NCBI RefSeq assembly: GCF_002354895.1
Contig: NZ_CP023439.1
Coordinates: 3,410,001-3,474,000 of the forward strand
DNA: 64,000 nucleotides
Direction of reading: 5' to 3'
DNA from: Thauera sp. K11
Lineage (GTDB): Bacteria; Pseudomonadota; Gammaproteobacteria; Burkholderiales; Rhodocyclaceae
Shown: piece after piece, positions 5,030 to 44,241 of the stretch
Layout of the letters: each line of letters begins with the position of its first letter
Numbering within the stretch: position 1 is the first letter of the stretch
Notes under the pieces: model-generated
Databases searched by the model: none
What the model was told of the DNA's origin: nothing
The model's input: only the letters and a program-made list of their open reading frames with translations
Made by a program: the position numbers and the translations under genes

Positions 5030-5145
5030 CGTTCCGGCACGACGCCCCGAACGGCGGACATTCCGGCACATACGCGAGCGGGATAGGCTATTCTGCAAGC
5101 GCGTGGCGGGATGCGCCCGCTTCGACGGCCCCCGGAGACAAGCGC

Positions 5146-9616: not shown

Positions 9617-9982
9617 ATGTACGTCTGCGTCTGCAATGCAGTGACCGAAAGGCACATCTTCGAAGCGGCACGAAGCGGCATGACCCGGCTCCGGCAACTG
9701 CGGGAGACGCTGGGCGTGACCGCCGACTGCGGGCGGTGCGCCAAGTGCGCCCACCAATGCCTTCGCGATGCGCTGACCCGGCCCGCGGACGCGGACGACC
9801 AGATCTGCATACGCAGTCCCCATCCCGGTTTTTCCTCGCTACGGAGTCCCCATGAAAGGCGACAAGAAGGTGATCCAGTTGCTGAACAAGCAGCTCACGA
9901 CGGAACTCACTGCCATCAACCAGTACTTTCTGCACGCACGCATGTACAAGAACTGGGGCCTGGTCAAGCTTGGCAAGCATGA
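9617..9982 (+). CDS. bfd: Bacterioferritin-associated ferredoxin Bfd, C-terminally extended
   Basis: A [2Fe-2S] protein that reduces the heme of bacterioferritin and so releases stored iron. The first 50 residues are a normal Bfd, with cluster cysteines C4, C6, C38 and C41 ([14 protein letters not shown]). Bfd proteins are about 65-75 residues, but here the frame stays open for 121 codons and runs 131 bases into bfr in another frame. The extra C-terminal half is not Bfd-like. Either a stop was lost or a base is wrong near 9800-9850. Its neighbours are hemP upstream and bfr downstream. Confidence 0.88.
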
Positions 9983-10331
9983 ATACGAAGAGTCCATCGA
10001 GGAGATGAAGCACGCGGACAAGCTCATCGAGCGCGTGCTGTTCCTGGAGGGCCTTCCCAATCTGCAGAACCTCAACAAGCTGCTGATCGGCGAGAACGTG
10101 CCCGAATGCCTGCAGGGCGACCTGAAACTCGAACAGGGCGGGCGTGCCGACCTGCTCGAGGCCATCGCCTACTGCGAATCCTGTCGCGACTACGTGTCGC
10201 GCGAGCTGTTCGAGCACATCCTGGAAGACACCGAGGAACACATCGACTACCTCGAAACCCAGCTCGGGCTGGTCGACAGCGTCGGCCTGCAGAACTACCT
10301 GCAATCACAGATGGAGCCGGGCGCGTCCTGA
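9852..10331 (+). CDS. bfr: Bacterioferritin
   Basis: A 159-residue subunit of the 24-mer heme-containing iron store. It begins with [15 protein letters not shown] and keeps the heme ligand M52 and most ferroxidase ligands (E18, E51, H54, E94, H130). Position 127, Glu in the E. coli and Azotobacter proteins, is Thr in the segment LEDTEEHID, which may weaken the di-iron centre or shift the ligand to E128. The gene starts inside the extended bfd frame. With bfd it forms a storage and release pair next to hemP and tonB. Confidence 0.96.
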
Positions 10332-27908: not shown

Positions 27909-29996
27909 TCAGAATCTCCCCGACAGGCTCAGCGCGACGCCGCGCCCGGCCGCGGCCAGCTCCCGGCCCGAGACGCCGTCGGTCAGATGCTCGTGGTAGC
28001 GCTTGTCGGCGAGGTTGGTGAGCTTCACGCCCAGCGTGGCGGCATCGAAGGCGCCGAGCGCGCCGAAGTGCCAGCCGAACTCGCCGTCGGCGGTGACGAA
28101 GCCGGGGGTACGGTCTTCGGTGCCGTTGGAGAATTTCTTCGCGATGCGGTTCTGCGCCGCCACCGCGCGCAACTGCGCACGCCAGTAGAAGCCGCGTTCG
28201 GCCGGCTGGCCGATGCCCAGCGTCAATTCGGGCGCGGGCATCTGGTACAGCGGCTCGTCGTCCTGGTGGTTGGTGCCGCGCAGCCAGGTGAAGCCGGCAT
28301 CGACCACCCAGGCGGCCAGCGGCACGCTGGCACCGCCTTCGACGCCGTAGATGGTGACGTGGTCGAGGTTCTCGGTGCGCTTGAGCGGCAGCCCGGTGCC
28401 GGGGTGGCGCGCGCCGGTGATGCGGCCGGCGATGTAGTCATCGACGCGGGTGTGGAAGGCGGCGAGCTGGTAGCTCAGCGCGCGCTCGCGCCCTTTCAGC
28501 CCGACCTCGAAACTGGTCGACACCTCCGGCGCGAGTTGCGGATTGCCGACGTGGTAGTAGCCGTCGCCGCGCGCCGAATCCTCGAAGCGCTCGCGCATGT
28601 CGGCGGCGCGGTAGGCCCGGCCGACGCTGGCATACACGCTCGTCGCCGCAGTCAGCGGATGGATCGCGCCCAGCGACCACGACAGGTTGCCGTCGGCGTT
28701 GTCCAGCCCGCTGGTCTGGGCCGCCGGCCCCGCGCCCTTCCGCTTGGCATCGCCCGTGACGCGGTCGTAGCGCGCCCCCGCCACCACGCGCGTGGCGCCC
28801 AGTGCGATCTCGTCCTGCACGAACAGGCCGGAGGATTCGATGCGGCCATCGACGAAGGGATCGTTGCGCTGGTTGTTGTTGAAGAAAGGCGCGTTGTTGT
28901 CGATGTAGCGCGCCGGGTCGCCCGTCATGCGCCACGTCTCGGCGCCCACCGTCAGCATCTGGGTCTCGCCCAGCGGCAGCAGGTATTTCGCGCGCGCGCC
29001 GTCGGTGGAGAAGGTGACGTCGTTGCGCACGTAGTCGCGCCCCAGCCTCGATGCGTAGGCGCGGATCTGGCGGAACACCTCCTGGTGATACACCTCCGCC
29101 GCAAGCTGGCCGGGGCCGAGCGCGGCATCGATGCCCAGCTCGTACAGTTCGCGCCGCTGCTCGGGCGAATGGATGGTCGCCACGCCCAGCGGCGCCGGGA
29201 TGCCCGCGCCGCTGCGCGCCGAGCCGGGGTACCACACGTCGTGGTCGGTATGGCGCTGCAGGTTCAGCCGCAGGCTGACGTCGTCGGACAGACGATGGCG
29301 GTATTTCGCCAGCAGCGAATCGGATTCGTAGCCGGTGTTCGCTTCGCGTCCGTCCGGGCTGCGGTAGTCGCCGACCTCGCGGCCGGCGATGCCCAGCACC
29401 AGCGCATGCCCCGGATCGGAATGCGTCAGCAGCACGGCGCCGGCCAGACCGCGGTCCACACTGCTGGCGGCAAGGCCGATGCGCCCGCCCGTCCTGCTCG
29501 TGGCCGAAAAACGCGCATCCGGCGTCATCAGGTTCACCACCCCGCCCAGCGCGCCGCTGCCGTACAGCACCGAGCCCGGCCCCTTCACCACTTCGACGCG
29601 GTCGAGCAGTCCGAGATCGGCGAACGAGGCGATGGCCCCCTGCGGCTGGGCGGAATTCACCCGCAGGCCATCGACCATCACCACCACGCTTTCCTTCTTC
29701 AACCCGCGCAGCACCGGGTTCTGCCCCCATGCGCCATCGGCATGCACCGCCAGGCCGGGACGGCCGCGCAGCAGATCCCCCACCACCGTGGCGGCCGCCT
29801 CGGGCGTTCGCACGACCTCCACCGCCTGCGGCGTCTCCAGCGCATCCGCGGCGTAGCCCTTGGCGGTGACGAACTGCTCGGCAAGCACGGTCGCGGCCGC
29901 CTCGTCCGCCTCGGCGGCATCGGCGCGGGAAGATGACAACGGAAACACGGCCAGGCCCAGCAAGGCCAGAACCAGCGGACGCATACGCAGCACCAT
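27909..29996 (-). CDS. TonB-dependent outer-membrane receptor
   Basis: A 695-residue receptor with a signal peptide ending SRADAAEAD, a plug domain (ETPQAVEVVRTPEAAATVVG, GLKKESVVVMVDGLRVNSAQ, VEVVKGPGSVLYGSGALGG) and a barrel ending VALSLSGRF. The plug is closest in style to heme, cobalamin or copper receptors rather than to the catecholate receptor at 18 kb. ATG 29996 has GGAG six bases upstream, better than ATG 30008. It is the first gene of the receptor-ABC operon under the promoter at 30068-30110. Confidence 0.92.
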   Translation of the reverse strand: MVLRMRPLVLALLGLAVFPLSSSRADAAEADEAAATVLAEQFVTAKGYAADALETPQAVEVVRTPEAAATVVGDLLRGRPGLAVHADGAWGQNPVLRGLKKESVVVMVDGLRVNSAQPQGAIASFADLGLLDRVEVVKGPGSVLYGSGALGGVVNLMTPDARFSATSRTGGRIGLAASSVDRGLAGAVLLTHSDPGHALVLGIAGREVGDYRSPDGREANTGYESDSLLAKYRHRLSDDVSLRLNLQRHTDHDVWYPGSARSGAGIPAPLGVATIHSPEQRRELYELGIDAALGPGQLAAEVYHQEVFRQIRAYASRLGRDYVRNDVTFSTDGARAKYLLPLGETQMLTVGAETWRMTGDPARYIDNNAPFFNNNQRNDPFVDGRIESSGLFVQDEIALGATRVVAGARYDRVTGDAKRKGAGPAAQTSGLDNADGNLSWSLGAIHPLTAATSVYASVGRAYRAADMRERFEDSARGDGYYHVGNPQLAPEVSTSFEVGLKGRERALSYQLAAFHTRVDDYIAGRITGARHPGTGLPLKRTENLDHVTIYGVEGGASVPLAAWVVDAGFTWLRGTNHQDDEPLYQMPAPELTLGIGQPAERGFYWRAQLRAVAAQNRIAKKFSNGTEDRTPGFVTADGEFGWHFGALGAFDAATLGVKLTNLADKRYHEHLTDGVSGRELAAAGRGVALSLSGRF

Positions 29997-30067
29997 GCAG
30001 CACTCCATCGAAAGGATGGGCTGGCTGGCGGCGGCTGGCTTGCCCTGGGTGGAAACGGGATGTGCGG

Positions 30068-30110
30068 ATAATACTGCAAATGAGAATTATTATTATTTGA
30101 TCTTCGTCAA
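30068..30110 (-). promoter_or_regulatory. Fur- and FNR-type promoter of the receptor-ABC operon
   Basis: On the minus strand, TATTAT (30073-30068) is a good -10. A Fur-like 7-5-7 element (AATGAGA, ATTAT, TATTATT) covers 30079-30097, and an FNR box TTGATCTTCGTCAA covers 30097-30110, centred about 42 bases before the predicted start. This geometry predicts activation by FNR at low oxygen and repression by Fur when iron is plentiful. Confidence 0.72.
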
Positions 30111-30381: not shown

Positions 30382-30813
30382 GTGAGCCGCATCGTCTCTT
30401 CCCTCCCCGGCCGCATACGCGTGCGCGACAAGACCCTGCGCAACCTCGAGCGCCTGGCCCGGGTCGAGCGCGCGCTCGGCGGCGTGCGCGGAGTGCATAA
30501 CGTGCAGACCAACACCGGCGCGGGCAGCGTCGTGCTGCACTTCGATCCGAAGCAGGTGGACGTGGCCAAACTCGAAGGCGAGGTGGATGCGGTCATCGAC
30601 GCGGTGCTGGCGGCGCCGGCGCGCGCGCCGGGCCAGCGTTCGCTGCGCGTGCAGGTGAACCGCTACGCCAAGATGGGCATGATCGGCAGCCTGGCGACTT
30701 CGCTCGCACTGGCCGCCACCGGACAGAAGCGCGGGCATGCGGTGTCGGGCGCAATCTTCGTGGCCTGCCTGGGCGTGCATCTGGGCGTACACAGGCGGCA
30801 TCTGTTGCGCTGA
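30382..30813 (+). CDS. Cys-less HMA-like protein with C-terminal membrane segment
   Basis: A 143-residue protein. Residues 1-75 look like a heavy-metal-associated fold lacking the CxxC metal site (LPGRIRVRDKTLRN, then VERALGGVRGVHNVQTNTGAG, then VVLHFDP). The C-terminal part is hydrophobic (MGMIGSLATSLALAATG, HAVSGAIFVACLGVHLGV). GTG 30382 has GGAG seven bases upstream. The same GR(I/V)R pattern occurs in the protein at 38822-39163 and in the N-terminus of the P-type ATPase at 34784-36937, so it probably belongs to the same iron-handling set although it faces the other way. Confidence 0.75.
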   Translation: MSRIVSSLPGRIRVRDKTLRNLERLARVERALGGVRGVHNVQTNTGAGSVVLHFDPKQVDVAKLEGEVDAVIDAVLAAPARAPGQRSLRVQVNRYAKMGMIGSLATSLALAATGQKRGHAVSGAIFVACLGVHLGVHRRHLLR

Positions 30814-30860
30814 AACCGGGATCGCGCCTCACGTGCCGCCCCGGAAACCGAGCAGGGCGA

Positions 30861-31015
30861 GCACGACGGTTTTTTCATCCGCCCGGATGGCGCGACACGG
30901 CAGGTCTGGTGGTGGGGGATGCGTTGAGCGGGCGAGGACTGTCCGAGCACCGAGCGCAGCGAGGGCGAGTTCCGCAGCCCGAGGAACGCATCCCCCGCCA
31001 TCAGACCGGATTCCA
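30861..31015. repeat. Palindromic dispersed repeat, copy A
   Basis: About 155 bp that recur, roughly 90% identical, at 49034-49188. The core is bounded by 23-bp inverted arms (30903-30925 and 30985-31007, 21 of 23 pairing) around a centre containing CCGAGCGCAGCGAG. There is no coding capacity of its own; it looks like a REP/MITE-type element between two transcription units. Confidence 0.85.
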
Positions 31016-31091
31016 GGCACTCAACCCCGGTAACCGAGGCGACGGTGGTGGAACGCCGGCACGGCCCCGGGGCGAGCCGCGTGATCCGGCG

Positions 31092-31652
31092 TCAGCCGCC
31101 AGGCGCGTCCTCGTGTTCCACGCAGCCAGCCGCCAGGCCCACCAGCCGCCTTGCCAGCGCGACCGCAGGCGCGCGGCTGCGGGCTTCGTCCGCGAGGTAG
31201 ATCTCCAGCCCGAGATAGCGAAAGGCGCGGTTGTTCCAGATCTGCTCCGGGATCACGGTGCGCGCGTGCAGCGAGAACGGCGGGCCGAGCGGAATCACCC
31301 GCACCCTGCCGGCGTCGGCGCCGTCCTGCTCCAGGGCGGCGAGCAGCCGTTCGCGCAGGGGCGCGTCGGCGCAGATGAAGTCGGCGCACGGGCCGTTCTC
31401 GTCGAAACCGGTGTGCAGGTCGATCAGCAGGCGATGGCGCTTCAGTATGTGGGGCAGCAACTGCAGGTAGAGCGCGCGGTGCAGCGTGTCGTAGCGGAAA
31501 CACTGGTCGGGGCGCGGGCGGCGCCCCGACAGACCTTCCGGGATCTCGAGCACCGCCACCTCCCGCGCCTGCAGGCCGGCGGCCACCTCGCGCCCGAAGT
31601 CGCGTTCCTCGCGGTGGATGCCCAGCACCAGCAGGGTGGCCGCGGGGTTCAT
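31092..31652 (-). CDS. Uncharacterised protein, possible zinc hydrolase-like fold
   Basis: A 186-residue cytoplasmic protein, last in the leftward feo run, 19 bp after feoC. The pattern LLVLGIHREERDFG near the N-terminus and LLIDLHTGFDENGPCAD in the middle recalls carboxypeptidase/succinylglutamate-desuccinylase or formylglutamate-amidohydrolase folds, where His and Glu/Asp bind zinc. I cannot assign the family with confidence. No ribosome site is obvious before ATG 31652, so it may rely on coupling to feoC. Confidence 0.7.
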   Translation of the reverse strand: MNPAATLLVLGIHREERDFGREVAAGLQAREVAVLEIPEGLSGRRPRPDQCFRYDTLHRALYLQLLPHILKRHRLLIDLHTGFDENGPCADFICADAPLRERLLAALEQDGADAGRVRVIPLGPPFSLHARTVIPEQIWNNRAFRYLGLEIYLADEARSRAPAVALARRLVGLAAGCVEHEDAPGG

Positions 31653-31671
31653 GGCACGCGCGCGGCGACGG

Positions 31672-31908
31672 TCACTGCGCCGGGCCGTCGCCCGTCCACT
31701 GGTACAGCGTCTGGGTGGCCGAGTCGCAATTGGAGCAACTGCAGCCGCAGGTCGACCCCGGCGGCAGGCGCTTGACCCGGCCCTTGCGCTCCAGCGTGCC
31801 GAGCATCGCTTCCAGCGCCTCGGGCGTGCTGTCCAGGCCGTTGGCCATGTCGGCCAGGCTCGCGCGGCGATGCTCGCGCAGGTAGTTGCTCAGACGGGAC
31901 AGGATCAT
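31672..31908 (-). CDS. feoC: FeoC-like Fe-S winged-helix protein
   Basis: A 78-residue protein with an N-terminal winged helix (ILSRLSNYLREHRRASLADM) and a Cys cluster CGCSCSNC at about residues 54-61 that can hold an Fe-S cluster. FeoC proteins modulate FeoB stability or feo expression in response to iron and oxygen. The start ATG 31908 has GGAG seven bases upstream, and the gene follows feoB by 12 bp. Confidence 0.9.
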   Translation of the reverse strand: MILSRLSNYLREHRRASLADMANGLDSTPEALEAMLGTLERKGRVKRLPPGSTCGCSCSNCDSATQTLYQWTGDGPAQ

Positions 31909-31920
31909 GCGGATCTCCGT

Positions 31921-34244
<2,324 letters not shown>

Positions 34245-34245
<1 letters not shown>

Positions 34246-34472
34246 CACAGTTTCTCCACCGTCAGCGCATCAGCTTCGTCCTTGCGCAGCGACAGCGCGA
34301 AGCCGCGCACGCGGATCTCGACCGGATCGCCCATCGGCGCGACCCGCGTCACGCTCAGTTCGGCGCCCGGGGTCAGGCCGAGCGCCAGGAGCTTGCGGCG
34401 ATAGGCGCCGCCGCCCTCGGAAAAGCCGAGCACCTTGGCGCGGTCGCCGACGGCGAGTTGCTTGAGCATCAT
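34245..34472 (-). CDS. feoA: FeoA (first copy)
   Basis: A 75-residue SH3-like cytoplasmic protein that assists FeoB. Family pattern: [36 protein letters not shown] and [24 protein letters not shown] 34472 has GGAG eight bases upstream. It is directly coupled to feoB. Confidence 0.94.
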
Positions 34473-34541
34473 TTGGAATTCTCCAGGGTCCGGAAACAGG
34501 CGGCGATGCCGGAGCACCGCCCGGTATAAGGGTTCATCGGA

Positions 34542-34787
34542 TCAGACCTTGCACACCATGATCTTGTGGGCCATGCCGCCGCCGAGCGCGAAGCGCGCCT
34601 CGCCGCGCAACACGACGAGCCCGGCGCCCTGGCGCTGGCGCACGATGATCTCGCTGCCGACGTTCAGGCCCATCTCGGCGACCCGCCGCGCCATGCCGGC
34701 GCCGCCGACGATGGCGGCCACCCGCAGGACGTCGCCCTCGGCGGCCATGGCGAGCGGAAAGGTGGCGGCGGACCGGGGCGCGTTCAT
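34542..34787 (-). CDS. FeoA-like protein (second copy)
   Basis: An 81-residue FeoA-domain protein (GGAGMARRVAEMGLNVGSEI, then FALGGGMAHKIMV), clearly diverged from the feoA copy 69 bp downstream. Two FeoA proteins per FeoB occur in several proteobacteria. ATG 34787 overlaps the stop of the P-type ATPase gene (ATGA), tying ATPase and Feo expression together. Confidence 0.9.
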   Translation of the reverse strand: MNAPRSAATFPLAMAAEGDVLRVAAIVGGAGMARRVAEMGLNVGSEIIVRQRQGAGLVVLRGEARFALGGGMAHKIMVCKV

Positions 34788-36937
34788 CCGGCAAGCTCGC
34801 TGACGGGAAGACGGGCCGGCGCCGCGGCGCGTTGCCGCCGCCGCTGCCGCGGCAGGCCGGCGCCCGCCAGTGCGCGCAGCAGAATCGCGATGGTGCTGCC
34901 GTTGTGCAGCGCCGAGGCGGCCACCGGGCTCAGGAAGCCGAAGGCGGCGGCCGACAGCACCGCGGTGTTCAGGCCCACGGTGAGCTTGAAGTTGCTGTCG
35001 ATCAGGCGCCGCGTGGCCAGGGCCAGCGCCTTCGCGTCGGCGACGCGGCCGATGTCGTCTTCCAGCAGCGCGATGTCCGACGCCAGGCGCGCGACGTCGG
35101 CGCCGTTGTGCATCGAGATGCCGACGTGCGCGCCGGTGAGCGCGGGCGCATCGTTGACGCCGTCGCCCACGAAGGCGATGCGGGCACCCTCGTCAGCGAG
35201 CTGCTTCAGGATGCGCGCCTTGTCTTGCGGCAGCAGGCCGGCGTGGAAGGCGTCCAGCCGCAGTTCCCCGGCCATCGCCTGCGCGCGCTCGGGATGGTCG
35301 CCGGTGAGCATGACGATGCGCCTGGCGCCGAGCCGGCGCAGCCGCGCCACCGTCGCCGCGCTGTTGGGGCGCAGCGTGTCGCTCAACGCCAGGAGTCCGA
35401 GCAGTTCGCCGTCGTAGGCGATGTAGAGCAGCGTCTTGCCTTCGCGGCGCAGGCGGTCGATCACGTCGAGGTGGTCGCGGGTGGAAACGCCTTCGTCGTC
35501 CTCGACGAAGTGGCGCGAGCCGACGACGATGCGCTTGCCGTCGATGACGCTGGCCACGCCGTGGGCGACGATGAACTGCACTTCCTTGTGGTCGAAGTGG
35601 TGCGGATGATCCAGCCGGTGCGACGCCTGCACCACCGCCAGCGCCATGGGGTGGAAATAGTGCTCCTCGACCGACGCGGCGAGGTTGATCAGGTCTTCCG
35701 GCGTGTAGCCGGCCCGCAGGGCGACGGAATCGGTCACCTTCAGCGCGCCGCTGGTCAGCGTGCCGGTCTTGTCGAACACGAAGGTGTCGGCGTCGGCCAG
35801 GCGTTCCAGCGCGCGGGCGCCCTTCACCAGCATGCCGGACCTGCCGGCCTCGTACATCGCCGCCTTGAAGGCGACCGGCGTGGACAGCTTGAGCGCGCAC
35901 GAATAGTCGGCCTGCAGCACCGCGGCCACGCGCTGCCAGTCGCGCGCCACCAGCCAGGTAGCGCCGGCCAGCCCCAGCACCATCGGCACCAGGCGGTCGG
36001 CCAGGCGGGCGGCTTCGAGCTGGGTGTTGCTCTTGGCGGCGAGCGACTGCTCGACGAAATCGGCGATGCGCGCCGCGGCCGCCTGCGCGCCGACCTTTTC
36101 GGCATAGATGCGCAGGCGGCCCTCGTCGACCAGCGTGCCCGACAGCACCGGGTCGCCGCGGCGCCGCGCCACCGGCACGCTCTCGCCGGTCATCGTCGCT
36201 TCGTTGACCAGCGCCTCCCCGCCCAGCACCGTGCCGTCGACCGGGATCACCGTGCCGGTGGCGGCGATCACCGTGTCGCCCACGCGCACCTCGGCGGCAT
36301 CGACCTGCACCTCGGCGCCGCCGCGCTCGACCCACACTTCGCTCACCGCCGGCTTGAGCAGGTGCTTGAGCAGTTCGTCGGAGCGCTGTTCGATCGACTC
36401 TTCGAGATACTCGCCCAGCGCGAGCAGGAAGGACGTGGTGTTAGCGGTCAGGAAGTCGCGGCGGCCAATCGAGATCGCCACCGCCATTGCCTCCAGCACG
36501 TGCGAGGTGACGCCCTTTTCGAGGAAATCGTCCATCGCCTCGCCCAGCAGCGGGATCGCCGTGCCGAACGCGACCGGCGCCTGCAGTTGCGGGCGCAGCG
36601 CGCGGGTGGCCAGCAGCGTGGCGCCGCTCAGCGCCACCGGCGCCATGCTCACCTCGCCGTTGCCCCTGCCCGGCCGTGCCGGGAGCACCGGCGGCGCCAG
36701 GCCGAGGATGGCCGCGCCCAGCGCGCCGGCATCGGTGCGCCCGGGCTCGAAGTCGATCACCAGCGCGCGCGCCGCCGCGTTGATGCGCACCTTCGCCACG
36801 CCGTCCAGCGCCGCCACCGCGCGCTCGATCTGCCTAGGTTCCCGCGGCGCGCCGGCGCGGCAGCCGTAGCGGAAGCGCACCCGGCCGCGGGTGGCATGCA
36901 CCGGCTCCAGCAGCGAGAACCAGCCGCCGCCCATCAT
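34784..36937 (-). CDS. P1B-type ATPase with YSC motif (FezB/P1B-6-like)
   Basis: A 717-residue metal-transporting P-type ATPase. An N-terminal Cys-less HMA-like domain (about 12-80, RGRVRFRYG) is followed by transmembrane helices, the actuator (VNEATMTGESVPV), the membrane motif DYSCALKLSTP (Cys347) in place of the usual CPC, the phosphorylation site DKTGTLTSG (Asp389), the HP motif (EEHYFHPMALAV) and GDGVNDAPAL. Cu/Zn pumps have CPC; loss of the first Cys and the Pro resembles the P1B-6 group that includes FezB of ferrosomes. Position between small membrane proteins and feoAB supports iron as cargo. ATG 36937 overlaps the upstream stop. Confidence 0.88.
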   Translation of the reverse strand: MMGGGWFSLLEPVHATRGRVRFRYGCRAGAPREPRQIERAVAALDGVAKVRINAAARALVIDFEPGRTDAGALGAAILGLAPPVLPARPGRGNGEVSMAPVALSGATLLATRALRPQLQAPVAFGTAIPLLGEAMDDFLEKGVTSHVLEAMAVAISIGRRDFLTANTTSFLLALGEYLEESIEQRSDELLKHLLKPAVSEVWVERGGAEVQVDAAEVRVGDTVIAATGTVIPVDGTVLGGEALVNEATMTGESVPVARRRGDPVLSGTLVDEGRLRIYAEKVGAQAAAARIADFVEQSLAAKSNTQLEAARLADRLVPMVLGLAGATWLVARDWQRVAAVLQADYSCALKLSTPVAFKAAMYEAGRSGMLVKGARALERLADADTFVFDKTGTLTSGALKVTDSVALRAGYTPEDLINLAASVEEHYFHPMALAVVQASHRLDHPHHFDHKEVQFIVAHGVASVIDGKRIVVGSRHFVEDDEGVSTRDHLDVIDRLRREGKTLLYIAYDGELLGLLALSDTLRPNSAATVARLRRLGARRIVMLTGDHPERAQAMAGELRLDAFHAGLLPQDKARILKQLADEGARIAFVGDGVNDAPALTGAHVGISMHNGADVARLASDIALLEDDIGRVADAKALALATRRLIDSNFKLTVGLNTAVLSAAAFGFLSPVAASALHNGSTIAILLRALAGAGLPRQRRRQRAAAPARLPVSELAG

Positions 36938-37425
36938 GCGTCTCCGTGGCGCTCCGCTTCGACTTCGGCCCGGATGTCGGCCATCTGCTCCTTCATTTCC
37001 TCGAAGCCGCCGGCGATGCCGGTGTAGAGCTTCATCGCCGACTTGACAATCTTGCCGCGCAGTTCCTCGTCGCTGAGCACCCAGGCCGCGGCGGCGCCGA
37101 TCAGCGCGCCGATCAGGAACTGCTCGGTGTTGCGCGTGCGCAGGAAGGCCGGCATGCCCTGCAGCAGGCCGGCGTCCATGCCCGCGGCGGCCAGTCCGGC
37201 CTGGATGCCGGCCTGCATCCCGGGACCGGCGCCGAAGCCCTGCCCCTGGCCGAAACCGAAGCCGTTGCCGGCGCCGTAGGCTGCTCCCGCGGCCTCCCCG
37301 CCGTATCCGCCCGCCGCTTCGCCGCCCCAGCCGCCGCCCTGCCAGGCAGCCCCGCCGTATTGCGGGCCGCCCTGCATCGTGCCCGCCGGGCCGGCGCCGT
37401 AGCGCTTCTTGTGCTTCTTAGCCAT
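36934..37425 (-). CDS. Small Gly-rich membrane-associated protein
   Basis: 163 residues: a basic start (MAKKHKKRYGAG), a Gly/Ala/Gln-rich low-complexity region (about 15-90), then one hydrophobic helix (FLIGALIGAAAAWVLSD) and an amphipathic tail (GGFEEMKEQMADIRAEVEAE) like YtxH-type proteins. GGAG lies eight bases before ATG 37425. It overlaps its neighbours on both sides. A structural role at a membrane compartment is possible; no family is firmly recognised. Confidence 0.82.
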   Translation of the reverse strand: MAKKHKKRYGAGPAGTMQGGPQYGGAAWQGGGWGGEAAGGYGGEAAGAAYGAGNGFGFGQGQGFGAGPGMQAGIQAGLAAAGMDAGLLQGMPAFLRTRNTEQFLIGALIGAAAAWVLSDEELRGKIVKSAMKLYTGIAGGFEEMKEQMADIRAEVEAERHGDA

Positions 37426-37759
37426 TGTCCTTCTCCATGTCGGCCTGCGCGGCGTCGCGCAGCATTCGTTCGATGAACAGCACGCCGGCGGCGCCCGCCG
37501 CGGCCGTGAGCAGCGCCGCACCGTAGTCCTGCCGGTGCAGCGCGGCGGCGGCCTGCGCCCCCGCCGTCAGCGCCGTTCCTGCTTGCAGCGCATGGCGCAG
37601 CACCCGCTTCAGGTCGGCGGGCGAGGTCGGCGACGGCCTGTCCTGGAAGGCGGAAAGGCAGCCTCCGGCGACGAAGCCGCGGATGAAATCGCCGCCCGCG
37701 GCCTGCTGCGGCGCAGCGCCTGCCGCATAGGGGTAGTAGGGCCGGATCGGGGCAAGCAC
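37418..37759 (-). CDS. Small hydrophobic protein of the fez-like cluster
   Basis: 113 residues, with Gly- and Ala-rich helices (GGDFIRGFVAGGCLSAF; ALLTAAAGAAGVLFIERMLRD). GTG 37759 is chosen because AGGAG, part of the upstream gene's last codons, sits seven bases before it and the start is then four bases after the upstream stop; ATG 37783 is in frame but has no such site. The 3' end overlaps the next gene by eight bases. No known family is recognised. Confidence 0.75.
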   Translation of the reverse strand: MLAPIRPYYPYAAGAAPQQAAGGDFIRGFVAGGCLSAFQDRPSPTSPADLKRVLRHALQAGTALTAGAQAAAALHRQDYGAALLTAAAGAAGVLFIERMLRDAAQADMEKDNG

Positions 37760-37763
37760 GGCG

Positions 37764-38138
37764 TCACTCCTGGGCAGGTTCATCGCCCGCGGGCCTGGCC
37801 GCGGGTTTCGCCGCGGCCTTGGGCGCACGCGGCGCGGCCTTGCGCGGCGCACGGCGCGCGGGCGCCTTCGCGGCGGGAGTGTCTTCGGCGGCATCCGCCT
37901 TCGCGGCGGGGGCCTCGGGCTCTGCCGCCCCGGGCTCTGCCGCTTCGGCCGCGGCGCCGGCCAGGCGCTGGCGCGCGCGCGCCGAAGCCTGCTCGATCGC
38001 CTCGAGGCTCGACACCGTGGCGTCGCGCAGCCTGTCCTGGGCCTTCTCCAGCCCTGCCTTGGCCTTGTCCGCCTTCATCAGGCGGAGCGCGACCGCGCCG
38101 GCCAGCACGCCGGCGGCGAATGGAAGCAGCGGGAACAT
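37764..38138 (-). CDS. Membrane-anchored protein with Lys/Ala/Pro-rich tail
   Basis: 124 residues: an N-terminal hydrophobic anchor (LLPFAAGVLAGAVALRLM), a helical segment (GLEKAQDRLRDATVSSLEAI) and a histone-H1-like tail (APARRAPRKAAPRAPKAAAK). AAGGAG lies nine bases before ATG 38138. It could link a membrane to DNA, polyphosphate or another polyanion; this is speculation from charge alone. Confidence 0.8.
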   Translation of the reverse strand: MFPLLPFAAGVLAGAVALRLMKADKAKAGLEKAQDRLRDATVSSLEAIEQASARARQRLAGAAAEAAEPGAAEPEAPAAKADAAEDTPAAKAPARRAPRKAAPRAPKAAAKPAARPAGDEPAQE

Positions 38139-38139
38139 G

Positions 38140-38835
38140 TCAATTCTCCTTTCGATGGCGGCCGATCCTGTTCTTCAACAGGTAGCTCCCGGCGCCCCCC
38201 GCGACCATGCCGGCCAGCATGGCGGGGTGTGCTCGACGCAGGAGCGGACTGAAGAGGCCGAGCGGGCCGGCATGCGGCCCCAGCTGGGCCAGCGCCCGCT
38301 CGAGGAAATCCGACACCGGCCCGTGGCGGACGTACGCCTGCTGCGGCGGAATGCCGCGCGCGGCGTGGTAGCTTTCCTGCGCCTGCGCATCGGACACCGC
38401 CTGGCGGAAGGCGGGCAGATGGCGCTCGAAGGCGGTCGCCTGCAGGTCCTGCAGCACGCGCCGCGCCTCGGGCTCGGCGACGTTCGCCAGCAGGTAGCCG
38501 TACAGCCGGATCTTGCCGGCCTCGCCGGCCATCGCACGCTCGCAGTTGGCCAGCCACAGCGGCGCCACCGAGGTCTGCTGCGGGAAGGGGTCCAGCGGGC
38601 GCGGAATGCCGAAGCGCTCGCACAGCGCCGCCAGCGCCGCCACCTGCTGCTCCTGCGAGCGCAGCACGTCGGCGAAGGGCGGGCGCGGGCCGAACGCCTC
38701 CACGACGCGGGCATGGAAACTGCGCGCCGCATACTCTTCGTACATCGCGATCCGCACCGCCTGGTGCAGCACGGGGAAGGGCGCGGCGGAATCGATGCGC
38801 CGGCCGCGCAGGATCAGTTCGTCATAGTTCTGCAT
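38140..38835 (-). CDS. Ferritin-like domain protein with C-terminal membrane anchor
   Basis: 231 residues. The first 155 or so read as a four-helix ferritin-like domain with spaced Glu and His (AMYEEYAARSFHARVVEAF, LRSQEQQVAALAALCERF, FERHLPAFRQAV), similar in style to DUF2202 proteins. The end is hydrophobic (HPAMLAGMVAGGAGSYLL) and basic. GGAG lies seven bases before ATG 38835. It overlaps the upstream gene by 14 bp. Binding or oxidation of iron at a membrane is the natural guess. Confidence 0.8.
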   Translation of the reverse strand: MQNYDELILRGRRIDSAAPFPVLHQAVRIAMYEEYAARSFHARVVEAFGPRPPFADVLRSQEQQVAALAALCERFGIPRPLDPFPQQTSVAPLWLANCERAMAGEAGKIRLYGYLLANVAEPEARRVLQDLQATAFERHLPAFRQAVSDAQAQESYHAARGIPPQQAYVRHGPVSDFLERALAQLGPHAGPLGLFSPLLRRAHPAMLAGMVAGGAGSYLLKNRIGRHRKEN

Positions 38836-39163
38836 TGCGGATCTCCCGCCACGCGTCGTGGAGAATGCGCTCGAGGATCTCCGCCGCGCCGGAATCGACG
38901 CCGGCCATGAAATCGCCCCACGCCTGCATCGGGATCACGTCGGGGTCGTAGCGCACGGTGCATGAGCGTGCGAGCAGGTTGAGCTGCACTGCATGCACGC
39001 CGGGGATGCGGTCGAGGATGTCCTGGAAGGCCCGCACGCGCCTGTCGGGCAGCTCGAAGGCCGCCTCTTGCGGCTCCAGCTTGAGCCTCACGCGGCCGCG
39101 GATGTGATGCGCGATGCGCACGCCCGCGAGGCCGCCACGCAGTTCGTCAAAGCCAGGCGCCAT
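38822..39163 (-). CDS. Cys-less HMA-like protein, first gene of the fez/feo run
   Basis: 113 residues with an HMA-like core lacking CxxC (AHHIRGRVRLKLEPQ, then FQDILDRIPGVHAVQLNLLA, then CTVRYDPD) and a helical tail. GGAG precedes ATG 39163. It resembles the protein at 30382-30813 and the N-terminus of the ATPase. It is the first gene after the FNR-type promoter and overlaps the ferritin-like gene. Confidence 0.8.
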   Translation of the reverse strand: MAPGFDELRGGLAGVRIAHHIRGRVRLKLEPQEAAFELPDRRVRAFQDILDRIPGVHAVQLNLLARSCTVRYDPDVIPMQAWGDFMAGVDSGAAEILERILHDAWREIRNAEL

Positions 39164-39376
39164 CCGCCTCTCCCCACCTACGGAACGGGAGCGACTGCAG
39201 GCCGCCCCGGTGACGACGGCGCCCTTCAGGCGCCCCCATGGCGGGAAACTCCCCGCCCGGTACCTGGCTTGCCGTTCCACGGCTGGCTACGCGAACCGCC
39301 CGAACGAGAAACCGCGCCATCCGCCGCCTGCGGTGCAGGCCGGCGAGAGACATCCGGTTCGTCGGGAATCGTCTGC

Positions 39377-39418
39377 AACATATACCCATACGGCCACCCA
39401 TGCTCTGATATCGATCAA
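39377..39418 (-). promoter_or_regulatory. Class II FNR-type promoter of the fez/feo run
   Basis: On the minus strand an FNR box (TTGAT-N4-ATCAG, one change from consensus) covers 39418-39405 and TATGTT covers 39382-39377. The box centre is 41.5 bases from the predicted start at about 39370, the textbook position for FNR activation. The leader to ATG 39163 is about 205 bases. Confidence 0.7.
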
Positions 39419-39440: not shown

Positions 39441-40532
39441 TCATCCCCTGCCGGCATCCGCATGGTTGTCGAGCGCGACGCCGAAATGCCAGCGGGCCAG
39501 CGTCGGCGCTCCGCCCCCGGCCGGCGCCACCCGCCACACGTCGCCGCCATCGCCGGTGGCCAGCAGCACATCGCCCTCGGGCAGCAGCGCGCACACCCGC
39601 GGCGTGGGCAGCACCGCGAGGGGCCGGCCGTCCCGCGCCCACAGCGCGGTGACGCCGGCGCGCGTGCAGCTCACCGCGAAACCGCCGCCCACCGCGGCGA
39701 CATCGCCGGCGTAGGTGCCGCAGGCGGCGAGCAGGGCGTCGTCGGCCTCGCCGTAGCGCAGCCGCTCGCCGTCGAGCAGGGCGAACAGCGGTCTCGGCTC
39801 GCGCCCTTCGTTCTGCAGCGCGACGCCGACGGTGCCGTCGGCGGCCTGGGCGACGTGGCGCACGCTCATGAAGGCATCCGGCAGCCGGTGCTGCGACAGC
39901 AGCCGCCCGCCGGCCGGATCGAGCAGCGCCAGCGACGGGTCCATGCTGTCGAGATTGCGCTTGACGCGCCCGGTCTCGGGCAGCGTCAGGATGCCGCCGT
40001 TGGCCACCGCGAGCCGGCCGTCGGCGAGCAGCGCGACCGCATGCGGGCCGATCCCGCCCACCTCCCACAACGCAATCTGTTCCAGCGTGCGTGCGTCATG
40101 GACACCGAGCCGGCCGTCGCCGCTGTCGAGATCGGTGGCGGTGGCGAAGAGCAGGCGAGCGTCGCGGCTGAAGGCGAAATGCCCCTCGAAGCGGATGTCG
40201 TCGTCGGCGTCGAAGCGCGCCAGTTCCCGCCCGCTCGCCACATGCCAGCGGACCAGGAAGCTGCCCGGCCGCCGCGCCGCGACCACCGCGCTGCCGTCGC
40301 TGGCCGGGTGCCAGGCGATGTCGTGGCCGCGCGCGGGCAGCGCCAGGGCAGAACTCGCGGCATGCGGGCGGCCGGCATGGAAGGCGGACGGCCGTTCGGC
40401 CGAATCGCTCCAGCAGGTCAAGAGCCTGGGCGCGGATTGCGCCACGGCCGCACGCAGCGGCGGCGCGGCGAGCAGCAGGCCGGCGGCGGGCACGGCCGCC
40501 AGCAGCCGGCGGCGCAGCGGATCAGTCGCCAT
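39441..40532 (-). CDS. DUF1513 family periplasmic protein
   Basis: A 363-residue protein with a Tat-like leader (DPLRRRLLAAVPAAGLLLAA) and a beta-propeller-like body (SAVVAARRPGSFLVRWHVAS, HFAFSRDARLLFATATD, VGGIGPHAVALLADGRLAVA). DUF1513 proteins are commonly encoded with imelysin-type and di-heme proteins in iron-regulated loci; their function is unknown. It overlaps the imelysin gene by 11 bp and ends the operon. Confidence 0.88.
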   Translation of the reverse strand: MATDPLRRRLLAAVPAAGLLLAAPPLRAAVAQSAPRLLTCWSDSAERPSAFHAGRPHAASSALALPARGHDIAWHPASDGSAVVAARRPGSFLVRWHVASGRELARFDADDDIRFEGHFAFSRDARLLFATATDLDSGDGRLGVHDARTLEQIALWEVGGIGPHAVALLADGRLAVANGGILTLPETGRVKRNLDSMDPSLALLDPAGGRLLSQHRLPDAFMSVRHVAQAADGTVGVALQNEGREPRPLFALLDGERLRYGEADDALLAACGTYAGDVAAVGGGFAVSCTRAGVTALWARDGRPLAVLPTPRVCALLPEGDVLLATGDGGDVWRVAPAGGGAPTLARWHFGVALDNHADAGRG

Positions 40533-41547
40533 CGTTGTCTCCGAAGCCGATCGACACTTTCAGCGCACCGGCGACGTCGTTGCCGAGCACCGCCTGCAGC
40601 CGGCCCAGCGCATCGATGGCGGTGGCCGCTGCCGCACGCCCGCGGGCGGAGGCGAGATCGTCCGGCAGCGCGGCGAGCGCGCCCTCGGCCGCCGCCACGC
40701 GGGCATCGACCCGCCCGGCCAGTTCCAGCAGGCCGCGTCCGCGCAGCACGGCGGTGAGCCCGTACGCCTGCCCGGCACCCTGCAGGCCGGCGCGCACGCC
40801 GGCGAAGTAGGCCGCCAGGTGCGCGCGCGTCCGGCCGCTGCGCCAGGCATCAAGCTCGGGCGCGGCATTCTTGGCGCGCAGCGGCTTTTCCAGGTATTTG
40901 AGGCGCAGGGTGTCGATGCTGCCGATGAGGATGTTCACCCCATCGGTCAGCATGCGCGCCTGCTCTTCGTCTCCGGCATCGGGCACTGCCTGCGCCCACG
41001 CCGGCCACGCTTCGGCCACCGGGCGGACGGTGTCGGCCACGTCGCGCGCCACCCATTCCGCGTAGGCGCAGGCCCTGGCGTCGGTGGCGAGCGCGGCGCG
41101 GCCGCGGTCGAACAACAGGTATTCCAGCGCCGGCAGGCCGCGTGCGGTGGTGCCGACGCGCGCGGCCGCATCCGGGCTGAAGCCGGCGGCGGTGGTTTCG
41201 ATCTGCGCCGGCCGCGTGGGCCAGAAGTCGACGCGGCGCAGCAACCGGCTGTCCATCGCCGGCCCCAGCGGCAGCGCCGCCACGCGGCGCAGCGCCAGCG
41301 CGGCCTCCTCCCATTGCCGGCGCGCCTGGGCGGTGGCGGCCGCGTCGCGCCGTTCGCACGATTCGTGCACCGCGTCGGCGAGCGCCTGCGAGCTTGCGGA
41401 CAGATCGGCATACGCCGGCTGCAGGTAACCGCGGGCGAGACCCTCCATCCACTGCGCGGGCGCCACCACCGGTGCCGGCGGCGCGGCGTAGGCGCAGGCC
41501 GCGCCCAGCGCCAGGACGGGAACGATGCACAGGCAGCGCAGCTTCAT
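40522..41547 (-). CDS. Imelysin family (M75) periplasmic protein
   Basis: A 341-residue exported helical protein with a signal peptide (MKLRCLCIVPVLALGAACAY). The imelysin pattern includes RRVDFWPTRPAQIETTAAG, the conserved GLPALEYLLFDRG (GxxxxE variant of the GxHxxE site) and TLRLKYLEKPLRAKNA. Imelysins bind iron in the periplasm and resemble EfeO. ATG 41547 shares one base with the stop of the di-heme gene. It is the second imelysin of this operon and is diverged from the first. Confidence 0.88.
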   Translation of the reverse strand: MKLRCLCIVPVLALGAACAYAAPPAPVVAPAQWMEGLARGYLQPAYADLSASSQALADAVHESCERRDAAATAQARRQWEEAALALRRVAALPLGPAMDSRLLRRVDFWPTRPAQIETTAAGFSPDAAARVGTTARGLPALEYLLFDRGRAALATDARACAYAEWVARDVADTVRPVAEAWPAWAQAVPDAGDEEQARMLTDGVNILIGSIDTLRLKYLEKPLRAKNAAPELDAWRSGRTRAHLAAYFAGVRAGLQGAGQAYGLTAVLRGRGLLELAGRVDARVAAAEGALAALPDDLASARGRAAAATAIDALGRLQAVLGNDVAGALKVSIGFGDNDGD

Positions 41548-42992
41548 CACAGCGACTCCAGGAAACGGATCAGGGCAGCACGCCCGGCCTTCGGCATGTC
41601 CAGCACGGCCTGCTTCGCCGCCTCCGCCTCGCCGCCGTGCCACAGCACGGCTTCCATCAGGTTGCGCGCGCGGCCGTCGTGCAGGAAGAAGGTATGGCCG
41701 TTGACCGTCTTCACCAGGCCGAGCCCCCACAGCGGCGGCGTGCGCCATTCCCGGCCGTCGGCGGCGAAGTCCGGGCGGTGGTCGGCCAGCCCCTCGCCCA
41801 TGTCGTGCAGCAGCAGGTCGGTGTAGGGGTAGATGGTCTGGCGGGACAGTTCCGGCAGGCCGGGGACGTCGCCGGTGACGTGGCGCGGCACGTGGCAAGC
41901 GGCACAGCCGGCGGCGTGGAACAGCCCCTTGCCCTGCAGTACCTGCGCGTCGCGCGGGTCGCGGCGCGCCGGCACGGCGAGCGTGGTGGTGTAGAAGACG
42001 GTGCGTTCGAAGGCGCGGTCGTCCAGGTCGACGGTGGGTTCCCCGCGCCCGCTGCGCCACGCCGCCTCGCGCTGCTGGCGCTCGCGGCAGTCGGTCTGCG
42101 CGGCGGTGCATTCCTCGTGCGGGAACATCGACGAGGTGATGCCCATGTCGCCGTTGAAGGCACCGCCCGTCTGGTGGGCGACGCTGCCCACGTTGGCCTT
42201 CCAGCCGAAGCGGCCGATCACCCAGTCCTGGCGCGATGCGTCCCACACGCGGTTGGGGCGGCCGGACACGCCCTGCCCGGCCGCGGCCTGGCGCTCGGCG
42301 ATCGCCAGCAGGCCGGCCTCGGGAATCGCTTCGAGCAGTCCGAGCCCGATCACCTGCGGCGCGATGCGCGGCGACATCAGCGTGCCGGGGTGCAGCGGAC
42401 CGTAGGCGAGGTTGCGCAGCCGGTAGGCCGGGCGGCGCAGGCGGTAGCGCGTGCCGTCTGCGAAGCGGCCCGGCTGCTCGGTGTATTCGATGACGACCTC
42501 GGCCTCGGGCTTGATGCCGGCGATGGCGGCGTTGTTCAACTGGCCGCCGTAGGCCGGCTCGGGGATCACGCCGTCCTTGCCGGTGTCCTGGCCCGGCGCC
42601 GCCGGGATGGACAGCCGCAGCAGCAGGCCGACGGGCTGTTCGGTGCTGGCGCCCGCCTTCACCGCGGGCGGCGCGGCGCGCCCGTCCATGGCGTGGCAGC
42701 CGGCACAGGAACGGGTGATGAAATGCGGCCCGAGCCCGTCGCGCCCGGTGGTGGAGGCCGGCGCCTCGACCCAGTTCTTCTTGAAGAAGGAGTTGCCGAT
42801 GAAGAATGCCGTCTGCCGCTCGACCGACAGGTTGGCGGCGGGATAGGAAAAGGCGTTGCGCCCGAAATCGTTGACGGTGGTGTCGCCGCCGGCGAGTTCC
42901 TCGCCGGGCTCGTAGCCGGGCAGCGGCGCGGCGCCGGTCAAACAAAACGCGGCGCCCGCGAGCGCCGCAACCTGAAGCAGTCTGGAACCCAT
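41547..42992 (-). CDS. Di-heme oxidoreductase (DUF1111, thiol oxidoreductase-like)
   Basis: A 481-residue exported cytochrome with two heme c sites, CAGCH (about residue 95) and CAACH (about 350), and a C-terminal segment typical of the family (TPPLWGLGLVKTVNGHTFFL, HDGRARNLMEAVLWHGGEAE). It resembles MauG/CcpA relatives found with imelysin genes. A role in oxidising or reducing iron on the periplasmic imelysins is a reasonable inference. The 100-bp gap upstream contains an inverted repeat that may modulate expression. Confidence 0.92.
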   Translation of the reverse strand: MGSRLLQVAALAGAAFCLTGAAPLPGYEPGEELAGGDTTVNDFGRNAFSYPAANLSVERQTAFFIGNSFFKKNWVEAPASTTGRDGLGPHFITRSCAGCHAMDGRAAPPAVKAGASTEQPVGLLLRLSIPAAPGQDTGKDGVIPEPAYGGQLNNAAIAGIKPEAEVVIEYTEQPGRFADGTRYRLRRPAYRLRNLAYGPLHPGTLMSPRIAPQVIGLGLLEAIPEAGLLAIAERQAAAGQGVSGRPNRVWDASRQDWVIGRFGWKANVGSVAHQTGGAFNGDMGITSSMFPHEECTAAQTDCRERQQREAAWRSGRGEPTVDLDDRAFERTVFYTTTLAVPARRDPRDAQVLQGKGLFHAAGCAACHVPRHVTGDVPGLPELSRQTIYPYTDLLLHDMGEGLADHRPDFAADGREWRTPPLWGLGLVKTVNGHTFFLHDGRARNLMEAVLWHGGEAEAAKQAVLDMPKAGRAALIRFLESL

Positions 42993-43092: not shown

Positions 43093-44241
43093 TTATTCCG
43101 GCAGGGCCGTGTTCAGGCGCTTGATGCCGAGCACGCGCGCCGCCTCGACGAGGCTTTCGGTCTGCGCCTTCAGCGCCACCACGGTCGCCTCGACCTTGAG
43201 CCGGCCCGGATTGCCGGCGAGGATCGCCTGGTCGAAGGGCGCCGGCACCGCCTGCGCGGCCTGCACGCTGACATCCATCTGCGCATCCACCTTGTCCGCC
43301 ACCGCCTTGTCCCTGGCGGCGACCAGGTCGCGCAGCGACGGCCCGGCAAGGCGGCTGCCGTCGGCGCGCAGGAATTCGCCGCGCCACACGTTGCGAATGC
43401 CGGTGGCGTTGGCGACGATGTCGCGGTGGGTGTTGTCCGAGAAGCACGAATGCTCGTCTTCCTGGCTCTGCGAATCGAGCGCCACTTCCATGCGCTCGCC
43501 GGCCAGTTCGGCGCGGCTGAGGATGCCCAGCGCCGAGATCACCTTGGCGAGACTGGCCGGCTGCTTCACGAAGCCGGCGCGGTAGTTCTTCGCCTGCGGC
43601 GCCCACGCCTTCTCCAGCGCGGCGAGATCGGAAACCAGCAGGTCGGTGACGACCTTCAGGTACTGCCGGCGGCGGTCGGCGTTGGGCGCCGAGCCGTCCA
43701 CGAAATCGGTGTAGACACGCTTGCCGGGGCCGTCGGCGCTGAGGTCCTGCCCCCACAGCAGGAATTCGATGGCATGCCAGCCGGTGGCGATGTTCTCTTC
43801 GCCGCCCTTCTCGTTCAGGCCGGACAGCGTACGCGCGTCGAGGCGGATCTTGCGCTTGTTGACGATGCCGGCATCGGCATGGCCCTGCACGGAATCCACG
43901 TAGGCTTCGTCCATCGGCCAGCCGTTGATGCGGCCTTCGGGGCCGTCCTTGCCGTCGATCGGGCCGCCATAGAAGCGGAAGGCCTCGGTCTGGCCATACC
44001 ATTCGCGCGCCGCCAGCCACGCCTTGCGCGCCTCGTCGAGGCCGGCCTCGCCCGGCGCGGCGACGAAGGCGTCCACCGCGGCCTGCAGCCTGCGCGCCGC
44101 GGCCGCACTGTCGGCATAGCTCGCATGCACCAGTTCGCCATAGTGTGCCAGCACGTCGGTGACGGCCGGCCCCTTGTCGGCCCATGCAGGAAAGGCGCAA
44201 GCGGCGGCGAGCGCGCCGGCCGCGATGAACTTCAGACGCAT
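43093..44241 (-). CDS. Imelysin family iron-regulated protein (IrpA-like)
   Basis: 382 residues with a signal peptide (FIAAGALAAACAFPAWADKG). Imelysin landmarks are WYGQTEAFRFYGGPIDGKDG, the GxHxxE motif in GWHAIEFLLWGQD, and DEHSCFSDNTHRDIVANATG. These match the IrpA branch, known to be iron-regulated in cyanobacteria and other bacteria. It follows the OM barrel gene by 66 bp and precedes the di-heme gene. Confidence 0.94.
   Translation of the reverse strand: MRLKFIAAGALAAACAFPAWADKGPAVTDVLAHYGELVHASYADSAAAARRLQAAVDAFVAAPGEAGLDEARKAWLAAREWYGQTEAFRFYGGPIDGKDGPEGRINGWPMDEAYVDSVQGHADAGIVNKRKIRLDARTLSGLNEKGGEENIATGWHAIEFLLWGQDLSADGPGKRVYTDFVDGSAPNADRRRQYLKVVTDLLVSDLAALEKAWAPQAKNYRAGFVKQPASLAKVISALGILSRAELAGERMEVALDSQSQEDEHSCFSDNTHRDIVANATGIRNVWRGEFLRADGSRLAGPSLRDLVAARDKAVADKVDAQMDVSVQAAQAVPAPFDQAILAGNPGRLKVEATVVALKAQTESLVEAARVLGIKRLNTALPE

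Follow-up and report, generated by a model that had tools for sequence, protein, structure and literature searches.

A probable fez-type gene cluster joined to the feoAABC operon in Thauera sp. K11

Ferrosomes are a recently described iron-storing organelle and, to our knowledge, how iron reaches them is an open question. That question is raised by a locus in a stretch of 64,000 nucleotides of Thauera sp. K11 (contig NZ_CP023439.1, positions 3,410,001 to 3,474,000; hereafter the window), where a set of genes for a P1B-type ATPase and small membrane proteins runs directly into the genes of a ferrous iron importer. Is this a ferrosome cluster, and does its joining to the importer have a meaning? 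We consider that the locus is probably a fez-type ferrosome cluster joined to the only FeoB operon (feoAABC) detected in the genome and facing a FezC-like gene. The organelle type is already known; two features look new, namely the joining of the cluster, in one operon, to the only FeoB detected and a terminal gene which we call dn. The genes are as follows (window coordinates; Pfam scores in bits).

38822..39163, minus strand: hma, first operon gene, HMA_2-like protein of 113 amino acids with a GRxRxK motif and without CxxC
38140..38835, minus strand: ferritin-like gene, 231 amino acids, predicted membrane-anchored, helix-2 ExxH lost
37764..38138, minus strand: g3, 124 amino acids, N-terminal hydrophobic helix followed by a tail rich in Ala, Pro, Lys and Arg
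37418..37759, minus strand: g4, small membrane protein of 113 amino acids, GTG start
36934..37425, minus strand: ytx, 163 amino acids, Gly-rich N-terminus, YtxH-like membrane helix, EEMKEQMAD tail
34784..36937, minus strand: putative FezB-type P1B ATPase, 717 amino acids, DYSCALK in the fourth transmembrane segment (TM4), N-terminal HMA-like domain
34542..34787, minus strand: feoA1, 81 amino acids, FeoA 53.3 bits
34245..34472, minus strand: feoA2, 75 amino acids, FeoA 76.6 bits
31921..34245, minus strand: feoB, 774 amino acids, FeoB_N, Gate, FeoB_C and FeoB_Cyto above cut-off
31672..31908, minus strand: feoC, 78 amino acids, Cys cluster, FeoC 69.3 bits
31092..31652, minus strand: dn, terminal gene, 186 amino acids, predicted hydrolase
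30382..30813, plus strand: FezC-like gene, 143 amino acids, HMA_2 domain and two hydrophobic stretches

The 11 genes from hma to dn form a leftward, nearly gap-free run on the minus strand (39163-31092), and lie where a first-pass annotation made by a model from the sequence alone had placed the run, with its three small membrane or low-complexity proteins (g3, g4 and ytx) and its two FeoA proteins, FeoB and FeoC, the last four of which have the matching Pfam domains. Neighboring genes overlap by the 4 bases ATGA between ytx and the ATPase gene and again, as that annotation had pointed out, between the ATPase gene and feoA1, where the start of feoA1 lies on the stop of the ATPase; feoA2 and feoB overlap by 1 base. 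The FezC-like gene on the opposite strand faces the end of the operon. With this arrangement the six fez-type genes and feoAABC probably constitute a single transcription unit, and the gene order is beyond chance, as it turns up again across the family as well as in other classes and other phyla.

The class of the cluster depends first on its ATPase, which scores 483.4 bits against the NCBIfam model TIGR01525 and is recognized by Pfam as well. The earlier observation of YSC in place of CPC holds, the TM4 motif being DYSCALK, of the DxSCxxK type, and the N-terminal HMA-like domain has GRVRFRY in place of CxxC. FezB is a P1B-6 ATPase, and we take the DYSCALK-type motif to mark the P1B-6 group. 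A quick maximum-likelihood tree was built from 116 P-type ATPase rows, 12 of the 128 filtered rows having been skipped (non-P1B types, duplicates, the CPC row L100_2, and L074, L081 and L082 with a degenerate TM4); the row filter missed several ATPases, including those of L130, L131, L132 and L160 (numbers with L and G are our handles for loci and genomes). The motif D-[YF]-[SAC]-C is present in 55 rows, 54 of which form one clade with the window ATPase inside it (SH-like approximate likelihood ratio test, SH-aLRT, 100) and share the motif DxSCxx(K/R); the remaining one, the Bacteroidales row L075, is placed outside without resolution, and a grouping of all 55 has a support of only 56. The clade takes in other proteobacteria, Campylobacterota, Bacillota, Methanobrevibacter and the metagenome-assembled genome (MAG) L076 of the Desulfovibrionaceae. 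By motif and clade the window ATPase would thus be a FezB-type member of the P1B-6 group, in a tree whose rows hold no proven FezB and do not include the ATPases of Clostridioides difficile and Desulfovibrio magneticus. In its Table 4, the part of PMC7558416 used here, P1B-6 ATPases are given Fe(II) as substrate.

Is the joining to feo, then, particular to this locus? A FeoB lies within 10 kilobases of the ATPase in 15 of the 63 fez loci (window included; some loci are short and two Arcobacter loci are near copies), so a Feo linkage unique to the window is rejected. The layout of the window recurs in L130, L132 and L133, while L141 has feo upstream; by genome, G000 (the window genome), G169, G108 and G198 maintain the joined layout, and G187 has it with a different order. 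A single FeoB match turns up in the window genome, at E<=1e-40 and likewise at E<=1e-30, and is the only FeoB detected. A FeoB of the close type (at least 900 bits) is found in 21 of the 199 family genomes, seven of them with fez and five with both adjacent. The FeoA, FeoB and FeoC domains, including the FeoB GTPase, gate and C-terminal domains, are common to feoAABC transporters and the window, but in the stretches of G143, G057 and G159 that were fetched, feoAABC has neither fez genes nor dn in its vicinity, unlike in the window. The Feo coupling had been put forward as a new part: the overlap-joined one-operon layout with the sole detected FeoB does look new, but Feo near fez is recurrent. 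A literature search on ferrosomes and feoB, in which sources were available in part and which left Grant 2022 and Pi 2023 outside its scope, returned no description of a feo-linked fez cluster.

Because fez and feo each occur separately in relatives and show no family-wide association, the joined layout is a combination of two modules at the level of the lineage and comes in two orders, and a general dependence of fez on FeoB is unsupported. A doubtful but possible alternative goes further and takes the two as iron modules that merely lie side by side in an iron island, with the ATGA overlap and the shared promoter having no special functional meaning, which would be compatible with a fez-type cluster. 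Genes for an imelysin, a DHOR di-heme protein, a DUF1513 protein and a TonB receptor surround the locus, and in L134, which comes from a genome of the same genus (G048), a receptor of the TonB type (4788-7031, minus strand, recognized by eye) sits between the ATPase and the FezC-like gene, in the slot held by feo in the window. Against such simple adjacency stand the maintenance of the joined layout in the five genomes named above and the gene dn, which in the family sample occurs only with joined loci.

The small fez-type genes were followed across genomes by means of the ATPase, which is present in 25 of 199 genomes of the family (E<=1e-120), 2 of 274 of the class and 8 of 398 of the phylum (E<=1e-95), the window genome being counted in each, as well as in 4 of 48 genomes of one small class and in 13 plasmid records (E<=1e-100; one of Rhodococcus at 35%). 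A gene-neighborhood survey of the kind suggested in the first-pass annotation showed that 22 of the 25 family loci carry the full set of hma, g3, g4 and ytx (individually 23, 24, 23 and 24 loci, respectively; window included); a FezC-like gene is found in 22 and a ferritin-like gene in 12, one of which (L144) is split over two frames and was excluded from the ferritin-like alignments. The misses include the short contig L035 and L152, a family locus (G052) with an ATPase of another FezB subclade, where a distant FeoB lies upstream at 481 bases and none of the small fez genes is matched. Beyond the family, 38 fez loci contain a ytx-like gene in 17 cases, none of them in Bacillota, and an hma-like gene in nine. 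Plasmid clusters of Azospirillum (L044) and Arcobacter (L045, L048) have the order hma, (ferritin-like gene), g3, g4, ytx, ATPase as in the window, with ATPase identities of 61% and 46-50%, but differ in having no Feo or dn match within 10 kilobases in the available sequence (only 568 bases downstream in L045); the Azospirillum cluster begins with the FezC-like gene and has no ferritin-like gene. This recurrence bears on a second, unlikely explanation, under which the ATPase is a plasma membrane Fe2+ exporter that forms an import and efflux valve against ferrous excess when oxygen falls, and there is no organelle. Related P-type ATPase groups do export metals, co-expression with FeoB could act as a balance, and the organelle reading in this organism comes from the genes; a simple exporter, however, needs no small membrane proteins, and a ytx-like gene accompanies the ATPase in the 24 family loci and 17 others. 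That the cluster handles another metal such as Cu or Zn is highly improbable and was rejected, since, although the ATPase scores 355.9 against the cadmium-family model TIGR01512 (cut-off 313.5), its TM4 motif is not CPC, the gene context is that of iron, and the phylogeny proposed earlier as a check leaves E. coli CopA and ZntA and the window genome's own four CPC ATPases outside the 54-row clade.

The fez operon of Rhodopseudomonas palustris has a P1B-6-type ATPase, and Shewanella putrefaciens also has a six-gene fez operon. In R. palustris CGA009 six fez genes (RPA2333-2338) make ferrosomes, according to the portion of PMC12016538 used here, a six-gene unit like the six fez-type genes of the window, to which the window adds the ATGA-overlap joining to feoAABC, a ferritin-fold member, a separate and facing FezC-like gene, and dn. 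The fez clusters of D. magneticus and C. difficile share the FezB transporter. In the ATPase tree the Desulfovibrionaceae MAG and a large number of Bacillota belong to the clade of the window but to another subclade, and their loci are without ytx, g3 and g4 matches.

The most specific new part of the locus is dn, an uncharacterized gene which the first-pass annotation had overlooked. It is found in 5 of the 199 family genomes, and these are exactly the five with a close-type FeoB adjacent to fez, which makes dn a candidate new component, confined to joined loci in the genomes that were sampled. Residues H13, E16 and H80 are invariant in all six aligned sequences, and from the motifs of the aspartoacylase and M14 families they are candidate zinc ligands of an HxxE...H arrangement; the product is a putative metal-dependent hydrolase with a tentatively predicted aspartoacylase/M14-like fold. 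The NCBIfam profiles gave no match to dn, and its profile matched one PDB sequence, the repeat protein NrfG (E 0.002), which was judged to be chance.

The FezC-like gene had also gone unnamed. Its product matches HMA_2 with 35.1 bits, and two histidines, H119 and H133, do not vary in any of the 25 aligned rows (out of 36, chosen for the membrane part; 10 rows with HMA_2 only and the partial L149 were set aside). Their spacing of 14 residues fits a bis-histidine heme arrangement as in cytochromes b, and the protein may bind heme. Of the 25 members, 19 match DUF4405 at E<=5, the best value being 9.3e-4. In the parts of PMC10979944 drawn on here, FezC of D. magneticus has sequence homology to DUF4405, its model could form heme sites via homodimerization, and recombinant purified FezC of Desulfurispirillum indicum behaves as a cytochrome with heme-b-like spectra.

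Among the small proteins, the description of hma as a Cys-less HMA-like protein was right as to the HMA_2-like character and the lack of CxxC, but the protein does contain a Cys, within an ARSC stretch that most of the aligned relatives retain. The ferritin-like protein is predicted to form a four-helix bundle within residues 22-159, with a less sure C-terminal helix at 204-226; it shares this fold with the DUF2202 and ferritin-like superfamily but differs from it in the predicted C-terminal membrane helix and in the loss of the helix-2 ExxH. Judged by alignment rather than by a solved structure, 6 of 13 ferritin-like rows have every diiron ligand (E, ExxH, E, H), and the window copy is not one of them. 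The ferritin fold proposed for it earlier thus holds in prediction, but the protein is not a new part, being shared by the 12 family loci, the Arcobacter plasmids and a gammaproteobacterial MAG, and an active ferroxidase is unsupported with these ligands lost. The view of g3 as a protein with a histone-like tail was not borne out, as the tail of the window copy has 10 Lys and Arg against 10 Asp and Glu, a charge of 0, with a crude tail definition that gave a positive charge in 21 of 27 rows and left L045 without a tail.

An FNR promoter had been proposed for the operon, and an FNR-like box with one mismatch is indeed present upstream of hma. Using consensus sequences for FNR and Fur, the following sites were located.

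39405..39418, minus strand: FNR-like box TTGATCGATATCAG, one mismatch, about 250 bases before hma
30097..30110, plus strand: FNR-like box TTGATCTTCGTCAA, one mismatch, between the TonB receptor gene and the FezC-like gene, which diverge from each other
30076..30094, plus strand: Fur-like site, 14/19 to the consensus, in the same intergenic region

FNR-like boxes with at most one mismatch occur five times in the 64 kilobases, against 0.19 expected, a number reached in 0 of 100 shuffles; two are at the fez-feo locus and three outside the cluster. The five nearest clusters (L130-L134) have TTGA-N6-TCA upstream of hma: the L133 site, at -298, matches the FNR consensus perfectly, those of L131 and L134 have two mismatches, and those of L130 and L132, which align with the window box, have three mismatches, a class with no chance control. 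In 55 upstream regions of 400 bases there were four sites with at most one mismatch (0.39 expected), two of them the window's own, and the box is mostly absent at more distant loci. The second box and the Fur-like site may serve either the TonB receptor or the FezC-like gene.

Several observations weigh against a fez-type cluster with a meaningful link to feo. The hma and ytx products fall below the Pfam cut-offs for HMA_2 (25.4 against 30 bits) and YtxH (20.3 against 37.5), the ferritin-like protein has Q61 and Q64 where E61 and H64 of the helix-2 ExxH would stand, and the window's own FezC-like copy reaches DUF4405 with an E value of 0.15, below cut-off. Across the family there is no positive association of fez with FeoB, an FeoB-like match (E<=1e-30) being found in 15 of 25 fez genomes and 123 of 174 without fez, as counted by hand from the match lists; among close relatives, G048 and G174 have fez without FeoB, and G143 and G057 feo without fez. 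As of 2016, according to the portion of PMC4932525 used here, biochemical work had not yet reached any P1B-6 ATPase. Finally, the fez-type class as we assign it follows from conservation among the relatives of the window, not from comparison with the proven clusters of R. palustris, Shewanella, D. magneticus or C. difficile.

If the locus is a fez-type cluster operating together with its FeoB operon, low oxygen would lead an FNR-type regulator to switch the operon on, FeoB, aided by FeoA and FeoC, would import Fe2+ into the cytoplasm, and the P1B-6-type ATPase (FezB) would pump it into a membrane vesicle, to whose construction hma, g3, g4 and ytx would contribute, as would the membrane-anchored ferritin-fold protein in this lineage. 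The FezC-like cytochrome would tune the redox state of the iron, and transcribing the two modules together would keep the capacity for import in step with that for storage. A rather unlikely extension of this scheme is that fez, feo and dn form a dedicated import-to-organelle line, with FeoB, FezB and the membrane proteins as one physical route and dn as a ferrosome-linked enzyme that releases or remodels an iron ligand or the membrane or matrix of the organelle. The co-encoding of the sole detected FeoB with the fez genes makes such an import-storage route testable, and two more parts are open to testing, the FezC-like gene and the ferritin fold with its missing ligands.

Between the FNR-like box and hma lies a leader stretch (39255-39300, minus strand) with GGTTCGCGTAGCCAGCC followed by a GCCAGCC-like repeat; several of the six clusters that were aligned have a similar stretch, and Rfam gives no match to it; as a conserved element, its part near 39281-39297 was rejected, there being no genome surplus (four matches with at most two mismatches, and four for the reversed control). 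On the far side of the FezC-like gene the TonB-dependent receptor gene (27909-30008, minus strand) is divergent from it and shares the intergenic region with the FNR-like and Fur-like sites. Upstream of the operon an iron-type island on the minus strand comprises the genes for the DUF1513 protein (39441-40532), the imelysin (40522-41505) and the DHOR di-heme protein (41547-42992), all assigned by Pfam, and a gene which by eye resembles a second imelysin (43093-44241). A gene of the Ferritin family (PF00210), one of three matches in the genome, is also present in the window at about 9873-10274 on the plus strand.

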